Below, one piece after another: positions 20,995 to 23,311 of a stretch of DNA of 34,946 bases. The first letter of the stretch is position 1; every line of letters begins with the position of its first letter. This DNA is from Brasilonema sp. CT11 (GTDB taxonomy: Bacteria > Cyanobacteriota > Cyanobacteriia > Cyanobacteriales > Nostocaceae). The position numbers and the translations under genes are program-made. The notes below the pieces were generated by a model. It saw only the letters and a list, made by a program, of their open reading frames with translations, ran no database searches and was not told where the DNA came from. Location of the stretch: assembly GCF_017982655.1 (NCBI RefSeq), contig NZ_JABXYX010000083.1, positions 1 through 34,946 on the forward strand, written 5' to 3'.

Positions 20995-21125
20995 TACCAG
21001 GCTCGCACCCTTCGGGCGTGACCGGAGGTCACGCTGCGCTAACGCAGTCGCCTAGGTCGGGAGATCCTCCTACAGCGCTGTCTCACTAAGTAGCGTAGAG
21101 GTTCCAACTCCAGAGCGCGTTACTT
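20995..21125 (+). repeat. GC-rich interspersed repeat, copy 3
   Basis: Contains CTGCGCTAACGCAGTCGCC, then TAGGTCGGGAG, sharing the 18-base core CAGTCGCCTAGGTCGGGA (21045-21062) with copy 1 and the CTGCGCTAAC lead-in. The rest is diverged. It fills most of the gap 20841-21236 between ggt and the nuclease gene. Confidence 0.65.
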
Positions 21126-21186: not shown

Positions 21187-21226
21187 TTTGATAAGTGCGA
21201 GCGTACTTATTTATTATTTGATAAGT
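21187..21226 (+). promoter_or_regulatory. Candidate promoter with ATAAGT repeats before the BamHI-like gene
   Basis: TTTGATAAGT occurs at 21187-21196 and again at 21217-21226, exactly 30 bases apart, and ACTTAT (21205-21210) forms an inverted pair with the first copy (ATAAGT, 8-base spacer, ACTTAT). A promoter TTGATA (21188-21193), 18 bases, TATTAT (21212-21217) can be drawn through them. This would place transcription about 13 bases before the ATG. Repeats of this kind often bind R-M controller proteins; that role is inferred. Confidence 0.4.
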
Positions 21227-21236
21227 AAACAAAGAT

Positions 21237-21830
21237 ATGAAGATTGTTCAAGAAGTATCCTTAATAAGTCTTGGTAGCTTTGAAGAATCAAACGATTGGT
21301 CTATCATTCGCTCCGAAATCCGTAATGCTGTCTCTCTAATCGTACATCCTTCCAATACACTTAGCTTTACAATCAATCCAATAAGACATGGTAATGGTGT
21401 GAAGCCAATCAAAGAAGCTTGCATGATTGCCTTGAAGGATAGATTTGGATGGAGGCTTGAAACTTCAATCAATTATGCTACTAAATCACCAGGTAAAGTA
21501 GATGCAACAAAAGTTATTGATAATTACCTTTTCGCTCTTGAGTGGGAAACTGGTAACATTTCTTCAAGCCACCGAGCAGTTAATAAATTAGTTTTAGGAC
21601 TATTACGTAGTGTTTTTCTTGGTGCTGCTTTGGTACTTCCTAGCAGAAAGTTATATCCTTACTTAACTGATCGAATCGGCAACTTTGAAGAATTAGAACC
21701 GTACTTTGATGTTTGGCGGGCAGTCAGAATCGAAGAGGGTTTTCTTGCAATCTTTGTAATTGAACACGATCAAATTGACAGCAATGTCCCCACAATTACT
21801 AAAGGAACAGATGGTCGTGCATTGATCTGA
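21237..21830 (+). CDS. BamHI-family type II restriction endonuclease
   Basis: A 197-aa homologue of BamHI (213 aa), which cuts GGATCC as a dimer. Conserved blocks are HGNGVKPIKEACMIALKDR, LEWETGNISSSHRAVNKL, PYLTDRIGNFEELEPYFDV and SNVPTITKGTDG. The metal-site residues match: Glu75 (BamHI E77), Asp89 (D94), Glu102 and Glu104 (E111, E113). The residues that read the DNA in BamHI also match: Asn107 (N116), Ser109 (S118), Arg113 (R122), Asp145-Arg146 (D154-R155). This predicts GGATCC specificity. The protein ends right after KGTDGRALI and lacks BamHI's basic C-terminal arm of about 16 residues; neighbouring frames do not encode it. The methyltransferase gene converges on it, with 40 bases between stops. 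The ATG at 21237 has only a weak AAAG before it. Confidence 0.93.
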   Translation: MKIVQEVSLISLGSFEESNDWSIIRSEIRNAVSLIVHPSNTLSFTINPIRHGNGVKPIKEACMIALKDRFGWRLETSINYATKSPGKVDATKVIDNYLFALEWETGNISSSHRAVNKLVLGLLRSVFLGAALVLPSRKLYPYLTDRIGNFEELEPYFDVWRAVRIEEGFLAIFVIEHDQIDSNVPTITKGTDGRALI

Positions 21831-21870
21831 AGTTATTCTGTATAGATAATTATTGTGTAGATTAGGGAAG

Positions 21871-22839
21871 CTATGATTGTGACGCAGTTTTTTTGTGCGG
21901 CTTCAATCTCTTGTTTCCTCTTGCTGATTCCCATTCCTCTGTAATTCCGTTAGCTAGATTAGTCAGCCGATCCACTGCAGGAGCTATGTCGCCAATTTCT
22001 GAGCCAATCCAGTAACGGTGTAGTTTTTCCGCCGCATAGAATGTGGTGCCAGCTCCTCCAAATGGATCAACCACAATTTGTCCTGGATTAGATGCCATTG
22101 CAATAATACGCTCTAGCATAATAGGAGCGAGTTCGTTAGGAACTCGTTTTTTGTGCTGACGATGCCGAACTGGTGGAATGTCAGTCCACATTTCCTCTGT
22201 TAATGTCCATAAGACTTCGGTAGGATCAGCCTCAACAGCATCTTCCCAAACATCTTCTGGCTCATCCCACACATCCATTAAGTTAATGCCCTTTTCATTC
22301 AATTTTTTGCGATGTCCACCATAATCACGAATTTCTCCACCGCAATGGCGACAAACTTGAATGGGTGTATATATCTTGTTGAAAACCGCTGGTTCTCCTT
22401 TGGTGTAATAAAGTAGTCCGTAGTGAGCGGGAGACATCTTTTTGCCTCTAGGAAAGGCTTTTGGCATTCTGCAAGCTATCCAATGCCTAAACCACATCCC
22501 TCGTTGATTGAGATATGCACCATACTCTATGCACCATCTAGGGAGATTGAATACAAATAAACTTCCACCTGGTTTAAGTACTCGAATACTCTCACAAAGC
22601 CACAGATGCGACCAAGCTAAATACTTCTCCGTCTCCATACGATCGCTTACACCTTCACCATATTCTTTACCAAGATTAAAGGGTGGATCGGCAAAAATGA
22701 CATCTACAGACTCATTGGGTAATGCTGACAAGAGTTTAAGACAGTCTCCTTGGTAAAGAATACCATGCTTACTTGTATACACCTGTCGTAGTCCCTGCTG
22801 AGTAGCAACTGATGTCGCAATCAGTTGAAAGGGGAGCAT
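21871..22839 (-). CDS. Beta-class site-specific DNA methyltransferase
   Basis: A 322-aa AdoMet-dependent amino-methyltransferase and the presumed protective partner of the convergent BamHI-like nuclease. Catalytic motif IV is FADPPFNLGKEYGEG (DPPF at 51-54); the AdoMet-binding motif follows near the C-terminus, VVDPFGGAGTTFYAAE (258-266), the beta-class order. Between them lie VLKPGGSLFVFNLP and a variable target-recognition part containing CRHCGG, a possible half zinc site. DPPF with NLGK resembles N6-adenine enzymes (HinfI/CcrM type) more than the SPPY-type N4-cytosine enzymes that include M.BamHI. AAAGG lies 8 bases before the ATG. The HTH gene is 49 bases upstream on the same strand, and a promoter with a palindrome lies in between. 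Confidence 0.92.
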   Translation of the reverse strand: MLPFQLIATSVATQQGLRQVYTSKHGILYQGDCLKLLSALPNESVDVIFADPPFNLGKEYGEGVSDRMETEKYLAWSHLWLCESIRVLKPGGSLFVFNLPRWCIEYGAYLNQRGMWFRHWIACRMPKAFPRGKKMSPAHYGLLYYTKGEPAVFNKIYTPIQVCRHCGGEIRDYGGHRKKLNEKGINLMDVWDEPEDVWEDAVEADPTEVLWTLTEEMWTDIPPVRHRQHKKRVPNELAPIMLERIIAMASNPGQIVVDPFGGAGTTFYAAEKLHRYWIGSEIGDIAPAVDRLTNLANGITEEWESARGNKRLKPHKKTASQS

Positions 22840-22876
22840 CTATGTAACCTTTCTTACGTCTATTTTAGTTAATTTT

Positions 22877-22911
22877 AGTTTACAAACTCTATTGACAATT
22901 GTCAATAGAGT
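22877..22911 (-). promoter_or_regulatory. 26-bp palindrome overlapping the methyltransferase promoter
   Basis: ACTCTATTGACAA followed directly by TTGTCAATAGAGT (22886-22911) is a perfect 26-bp palindrome. On the minus strand its TTGACA (22905-22900), a 17-base spacer and TAAACT (22882-22877) form a promoter for the methyltransferase, 38 bases before its ATG. On the plus strand TTGACA (22892-22897), 17 bases, TATGAG (22915-22920) forms a mirror promoter, antisense to the HTH gene. The HTH stop codon lies inside the palindrome. It could also fold as an 11-bp hairpin, but no T-run follows. Confidence 0.65.
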
Positions 22912-23137
22912 CTGTATGAGAAGTTGTACTACGTGGTTGATAAGGCTTGCCAGTAGGTTGATTTTTGTATTTTTCTATCTCATTAGCTTCTAGATAGTAA
23001 TAACGCCCAAGTTTGGAAGCTACGATCTGTCCATTTTTAATTAAGTCATGAACTCGCTGACGGGTTACACCGAGTAGCTTGGCAGTTTGAGCTACAGAGA
23101 GTAGTTCAGGACTGTTATTTGAAGAAGAGTATGTCAT
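22889..23137 (-). CDS. Small excisionase-type HTH DNA-binding protein, 82 aa
   Basis: Residues 12-60 (LLSVAQTAKLLGVTRQRVHD, then LIKNGQIVASKLGRYYYLEA) are a typical excisionase/MerR-like winged HTH (HTH_17): a recognition helix followed by a beta-hairpin wing and a helix NEIEKYKNQ. The N- and C-terminal tails are polar and flexible. It precedes the methyltransferase by 49 bases on the same strand and its stop codon sits in the 26-bp palindrome, so it probably regulates the R-M genes like a controller protein, though classical C proteins are of the XRE fold. Phage-type excisionase function is less likely because no integrase is present. AT-rich sequence upstream (23138-23180) could hold its promoter. 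Confidence 0.82.
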   Translation of the reverse strand: MTYSSSNNSPELLSVAQTAKLLGVTRQRVHDLIKNGQIVASKLGRYYYLEANEIEKYKNQPTGKPYQPRSTTSHTDSIDNCQ

Positions 23138-23311
23138 AGAATAAGCTCAGAGAATGCTATGGTCTCACAAATAAATTTTCCAAAATATTGCATTCTCAAG
23201 CGTAACTTAACTGCTGTCAGCGAAGCACATCATAAAAAGGCGGGTTAACAGGCTAAAATTTTGTTGCATTAGACGGCTAGTCTTAATCCACAAATTGATC
23301 TGCTATTGGAT

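Follow-up and report, generated by a model that had tools for sequence, protein, structure and literature searches.

The window, i.e. the whole stretch of 34,946 nucleotides from Brasilonema sp. CT11 that was analysed, carries three neighbouring genes which together are best read as a complete BamHI/OkrAI-like restriction-modification system of type II (Table 1). We consider it probable that this system both cuts and protects GGATCC, and that its methylase is repressed by a small HTH_17 protein acting at a palindrome. According to the mechanism we propose, the HTH_17 protein would bind as a dimer at the palindrome, across the -35 element of the methylase promoter, and the bound dimer would repress transcription of the methylase. 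In a newly arrived system the methylase would be made freely at first, and it would be throttled as the HTH protein accumulates.

Table 1. Positions of the genes and sites of the restriction-modification locus in the window.
Feature	Position	Strand	Basis
Promoter-like site 5' of nuclease, TTGATA-18-TATTAT	21188..21217	+	Consensus scan alone, 10/12
BamHI-family type II restriction endonuclease, 197 aa	21237..21830	+	PF02923, 3.7e-78
Beta-class amino-methyltransferase, 322 aa, FADPPFNL motif	21871..22839	-	PF01555, 5.4e-37
Sigma-70-like methylase promoter, TTGACA-17-TAAACT	22877..22905	-	Consensus scan, 10/12
Perfect 26-bp palindrome, proposed operator	22886..22911		Longest in window, conserved in 25/25 HTH loci
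HTH_17/excisionase-type protein, 82 aa, probable methylase regulator	22889..23137	-	HTH_17, 6.6e-11; TIGR01764, 3.6e-8

The nuclease and the GGATCC site

An initial annotation of this DNA had named three open reading frames, with the nuclease and methylase genes convergent, and the list of open reading frames agrees with it in both respects. The nuclease matches PF02923 over the entire profile (positions 1-157 of 157, 261.1 bits, cut-off 22.8), and it is 55% identical to OkrAI across 174 residues and 43% identical to BamHI across 163 residues. The nine residues that the annotation had singled out as shared with BamHI are all identical in the alignment, in BamHI as well as in OkrAI. Glu75, Asp89, Glu102 and Glu104 correspond to E77, D94, E111 and E113 of BamHI, and Asn107, Ser109, Arg113, Asp145 and Arg146 to N116, S118, R122, D154 and R155; we take these residues to have catalytic (metal-ligand) and base-contact roles. 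Judged by its sequence, the nuclease likely cuts GGATCC. A lone, divergent BamHI-like protein with 32% identity, in which FLAGN replaces WETGN, is encoded on a Priestia plasmid (L101:5001-5570), and no methylase was found near it. Directly 5' of the nuclease gene in the window lies a dispersed repeat of about 80 bp (21008-21087); the 307 bp around it match 40 other sites in the same genome, mostly across the 80 bases, and the repeat belongs to no Rfam family, a search of the window with Rfam at gathering thresholds having given no match.

Avoidance of GGATCC in host DNA was considered as a proof of specificity and was rejected, because five other palindromic hexamers are equally avoided in the long contigs of the host and because GGATCC is likewise depleted in relatives that lack the nuclease. 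These long contigs (235 kb) contain a single GGATCC site against 17.7 expected, which ranks 6th among 64 palindromic hexamers, and the short contigs (10 contigs, 33 kb) contain 8 sites against 8.9 expected. The genome of the window as a whole has 98 sites (control 511), a count that is probably inflated by the short contigs, and G083, another genome with the system, has 567. When 9 nuclease-positive genomes were compared with 20 nuclease-negative ones, the latter being the listed negatives and not a random draw, a one-sided Mann-Whitney test gave p values of 0.106 for sites per megabase and 0.020 for the ratio to the reversed control; inside the family (5 vs 20 genomes) the values were 0.093 and 0.074, respectively. 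In the ten 3-kb contigs of G000 (L104, L107, L110, L111, L113, L115, L116 and L119-L121) GGATCC and TTCGAA occur at the expected rate and GCGATCGC sites are fewer; in eleven long stretches GGATCC and TTCGAA are strongly avoided. It may be that the assembly includes foreign DNA in the form of these short contigs.

The methylase and its partnership with the nuclease

The surroundings of BamHI-family nucleases were compared in 90 loci, i.e. the window, 7 loci from cyanobacterial genomes, 79 of the best 80 out of 266 relatives, and 3 of 4 plasmid hits, the second Geobacillus plasmid being left out; L012 and L042 were excluded as duplicates of L025 and L014, respectively. Because the best 80 of the 266 relatives were taken, the survey is weighted toward close relatives. 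The presence of methylase, HTH and XRE genes was called by bit-score thresholds in tblastn searches with few probes, so distant forms can go undetected.

The window methylase carries FADPPFNL near its N-terminus and DPFGGAGTT near its C-terminus, an arrangement that is the order of the beta group according to an excerpt of PMC2890505, and it matches the MTase_II model of PADLOC (428 positions) at 1.3e-90. Methylases of the FADPPFNL type were found near the nuclease in 79 of the 90 loci, as the sole type in 59 and together with an SPPY-type methylase in 20. The SPPY type is present in 29 loci, it is the only type in 9, and the window locus is without it. Two loci have neither type, namely L054, whose contig ends just past the nuclease, and L101, the lone nuclease mentioned above. 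The motif varies slightly (L081 reads FVDPPFNL and L036 reads FADPPFNI), and in L033, L086 and L096 the matched methylase piece did not include it. Where both types occur, one nuclease is accompanied by two methylases side by side; the SPPY-type methylases are larger, with 455-463 aa (examples among L059-L097, e.g. L070:983-3240).

The initial annotation held that the nuclease works here with a different methylase, and that BamHI itself goes with a larger, SPPY-type enzyme. The first statement is contradicted by the survey, since the window type of methylase stands beside 79 of the 90 nucleases, including the one on the Geobacillus plasmid pGeo12b (L100), which shares 146 of 209 residues (70%) with BamHI. 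The methylase of this Geobacillus locus is of the FADPPFNL type and is 45-46% identical to the window methylase, and therefore no methylase exchange took place here; as the FADPPFNL type is the majority partner, the nuclease-methylase pair in the window is the usual one. As for the second statement, the larger size is correct for the Geobacillus enzyme (414 aa vs 322 aa in the window), and the SPPY type is not confirmed for BamHI, the methylase of this near-BamHI relative being of the FADPPFNL type. From the Geobacillus relative, M.BamHI is predicted to belong to the FADPPFNL family. The phage collection contained no methylase relative above 60% identity, and the viral contigs contained no relative of the Geobacillus methylase.

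The window methylase most likely protects the same site as the nuclease. By analogy with M.BamHI, the modified base is probably N4-methylcytosine. DPPF motifs are typically found in adenine methylases, a point that was counted against the N4-methylcytosine reading. M.BamHI is known to produce N4-methylcytosine, i.e. GGAT(N4mC)C (excerpts of PMC3646050 and PMC2890505), so if M.BamHI is a member of the FADPPFNL family, DPPF need not imply adenine methylation.

The HTH_17 protein and its distribution

The 82-aa protein encoded just before the methylase had been annotated as an excisionase-type HTH regulator, in a class distinct from the XRE-type controller of BamHI, and this assignment of class is borne out. 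The protein reaches 33.6 bits with TIGR01764 ('excise', cut-off 28.8), which places it among the Xis-like winged HTH proteins, and it is above cut-off for HTH_17; with HTH_3 it reaches 12.3 bits, under the cut-off of 23, and the MerR_1 match (E 0.1) is also under cut-off. A profile search of the PDB gave a weak match to Gp37 (4j2n, E 0.0057). The protein was also considered as an XRE-type C protein, an identity that was rejected because of the low HTH_3 score and because three XRE probes showed no similarity near the window nuclease. No integrase was recognised by eye among the open reading frames at 18.5-26 kb.

At the thresholds used, the HTH_17 gene is present in 25 of the 90 loci and an XRE controller in 40, and the two never occur together. 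The HTH loci are cyanobacterial except for one from Chloroflexota (L056), and in all of them the nuclease and methylase genes are convergent. A tree of the loci of the quick kind, in which 40 of 86 inner branches are open and long rows are included, requires 7 changes of the HTH label compared with 22.2 in shuffles, i.e. the trait is clustered, with several losses or gains. Close homologues of the protein (76-100% identity) were found in 4 of 386 cyanobacterial genomes, every one beside this system, and 7 further genomes gave distant hits alone, which cover a part of the protein at 25-55% identity. No homologue turned up in the genomes of 11 HTH-less loci, the HTH-bearing controls being detected in 2 of 2 cases (the completeness of these 13 genomes was not given), and the viral contigs contained one distant relative. 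The HTH gene is thus dedicated to this restriction-modification locus.

These data also bear on the view taken in the initial annotation, namely that the system was reassembled in this genome, the nuclease having been joined by recombination to an unrelated methylase and an unrelated regulator. The wider family has indeed added or exchanged methylases, as can be seen from the loci with both types and from those with the SPPY type alone, but the window methylase is of the majority type and shares its family with the methylase of the near-BamHI nuclease, and the regulator is common to 25 loci. We find a recombination of this kind hardly credible. What stands is the regulator alone, and both its frequency in the survey and the tree mark it as a trait of a cyanobacterial/Chloroflexota lineage rather than an event in this genome alone.

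The divergently arranged relatives have methylases that are longer by an N-terminal domain of roughly 100 aa (e.g. L016:7346-7681 and L100:4201-4554). A MerR model matches this domain weakly, at E values up to 0.1, in 8 out of 16 cases, and its comparison with XRE controllers by hhalign gave a probability of 20.7%. The methylase of L098 has an XRE-like domain at its N-terminus. Given the long methylases of the divergent relatives and the XRE controllers next to their nucleases, we infer that the family may have solved the control of the methylase more than once. The XRE controller and the nuclease of Salmonella enterica subsp. diarizonae are separated by a 296-aa open reading frame of unknown kind (L084:5049-5939), and the Photorhabdus locus L089 shows the same spacing between these two genes.

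The palindrome at the methylase promoter

The palindrome, which the initial annotation did not mention, provides the best evidence for any regulation by the HTH protein. It spans the stop codon of the HTH gene and the -35 element of the methylase promoter, and the next-longest perfect palindrome in the window has 16 bp as compared to 26 bp. The promoter scan found 9 sites overall against 6.2 expected, which is not above chance, and the call of the methylase promoter is not evidence alone; the spacing of this promoter is conserved in most HTH loci. Since the promoter is near consensus and its -35 element and a large part of its spacer lie within the site, a bound dimer should block it, and so the HTH protein is likely a repressor of the methylase.

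Scored against a consensus of 21 positions, all 25 HTH loci reach values of 18-21. Among the 19 HTH-less loci, L057 scores 19 and 17 others score 9-16, which gives a score of at least 18 in 1 of 18 testable loci (L033 is outside the test as its contig ends within the methylase); the shuffles in this scoring were plain base shuffles, and the comparison is not blind because the consensus was derived from the HTH loci. The association is also partly physical, because gene and site share sequence where the HTH gene ends, and any loss of the gene harms the site as well. Several observations reach beyond mere physical overlap. The stop codon of the HTH gene shifts while the site stays put, with offsets of +20 in 12 loci, +14 in 11 and -2 in 2. 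Over 26 loci, 10 of the 26 site columns are invariant, compared with none of 24 columns upstream and none of 34 downstream, where the ungapped comparison of the flanks lowers their apparent conservation, most of all downstream. Finally, the exact 22-base core is found in 3 of 386 genomes, always at this junction; the fourth HTH genome is one mismatch off, and 19 other genomes have one-mismatch core sites only. Within the genome of the window, the 20-base core is matched exactly at one site, and the next best site has 2 mismatches.

Counting against the operator reading, one central pair of the site is asymmetric, with A-A in 14 of the 26 loci counted (14 of the 25 HTH loci), and no HTH gene was found in the genome of L057. 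This Chloroflexota locus keeps the palindrome and the promoter upstream of its methylase. The HTH-less loci L015, L044 and L047, compared by eye, have TTGACA-17-TATTAT at the same place and lack the palindrome.

Alternatively, the palindrome could work at the RNA level, as a hairpin in which the HTH transcript ends and which serves as a terminator, attenuator or stabiliser, with the HTH protein acting elsewhere. The strand does fold strongly (z -4.56 vs shuffles), but there is no T run after the palindrome, the site is absent from the list of the terminator scan, and it overlaps a promoter. Moreover, double changes that preserve pairing occur in only 1 of 13 symmetric pairs, in 2 of 26 loci, and single changes break pairs; this near-lack of compensatory changes speaks for DNA bound by a protein rather than for an RNA stem, and we regard the hairpin as very unlikely.

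A different role for the protein is also conceivable: it might activate the methylase in the manner of MerR, between -35 and -10, or autoregulate the HTH-methylase unit. The MerR-like character of HTH_17, visible in the MerR_1 match below cut-off, and the location of the palindrome at a promoter agree with this. MerR-type activation works by untwisting promoters of non-optimal spacing. Here the centre of the palindrome lies just past -35, and the spacer of 17 bp is already near optimal, so untwisting is uncalled for. We judge such a role unlikely and retain repression of the methylase as the preferred reading.

No copy of the palindrome was seen by eye before the nuclease gene, where the upstream DNA varies between loci, and the promoter-like site found there in the window showed no conservation in the relatives when compared by eye. 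The nuclease, lacking a copy of the site, is probably constitutive or otherwise governed. By eye, a possible inverted repeat, ACTACTC/GAGTAGT, precedes the nuclease in L027, L028, L053 and other loci and is not present in the window, and another possible inverted repeat, GAGAATGC/GCATTCTC, lies before the HTH gene of the window at 23150-23197.

Comparison with known systems

The balance between methylase and nuclease in type II systems is an old question that has mostly been approached via XRE controllers near the nuclease. It is interesting to compare the window with the systems that are closest to it. OkrAI (PDB 3odh), an isoschizomer of BamHI, shares with the window nuclease the identity given above and all nine aligned residues, and BamHI and OkrAI are described in an excerpt of a review (PMC4081073) as drifted versions of a single enzyme. 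With BamHI and its Geobacillus relative L100, the window has in common the nuclease family and the FADPPFNL family of methylases, the latter as judged from L100. At the same time, the two arrangements differ: in L100 the genes are divergent, the nuclease has an XRE controller next to it and the methylase is lengthened by an N-terminal domain, whereas in the window the genes converge, the methylase is short and an HTH_17 protein is encoded next to it. Ives is said to have described, in 1992, an intergenic controller gene in the BamHI system.

Like the HTH protein of the window, the C proteins of type II systems are small HTH proteins encoded inside the restriction-modification unit. They belong to another HTH family and are encoded upstream of the nuclease gene (PMC12255303, excerpt), while the HTH gene of the window and its putative operator are upstream of the methylase. 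Another likeness is found in RptR, a small non-C repressor that is dedicated to a restriction-modification locus and acts at palindromic sites over a promoter; RptR differs in that it serves type I systems and uses repeated 6-bp TAGCTA sites (same excerpt), and for these reasons an identification of the window regulator as RptR was rejected. The words 'excisionase' and 'MerR' do not occur in that paper. In a library of open-licence papers we found no description of an excisionase- or MerR-type controller of restriction-modification, which does not imply its absence elsewhere.

M.BamHI has a fidelity index of 2, the lowest in the table of PMC3646050 (excerpt), and such low fidelity would be a reason for holding a methylase of this kind at a low level; repression of the methylase could explain how over-methylation is avoided in a family whose best-known member has low fidelity. 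In comparison with the systems above, the nuclease and methylase of the window are a known kind of pair, and the regulator with its putative operator is the new part. On balance we lean towards the view that an excisionase-like dimer, acting at a 26-bp palindrome shared by the 3' end of the gene encoding it and the -35 element of the next promoter, represents a class of restriction-modification controllers directed at the methylase. One BamHI-type lineage would then have a separate repressor of the methylase, while its divergent relatives have an XRE controller and often an HTH-fused methylase. A lineage of a textbook enzyme family appears here to set the dose of its methylase by an unrelated regulator and a single identifiable putative operator.
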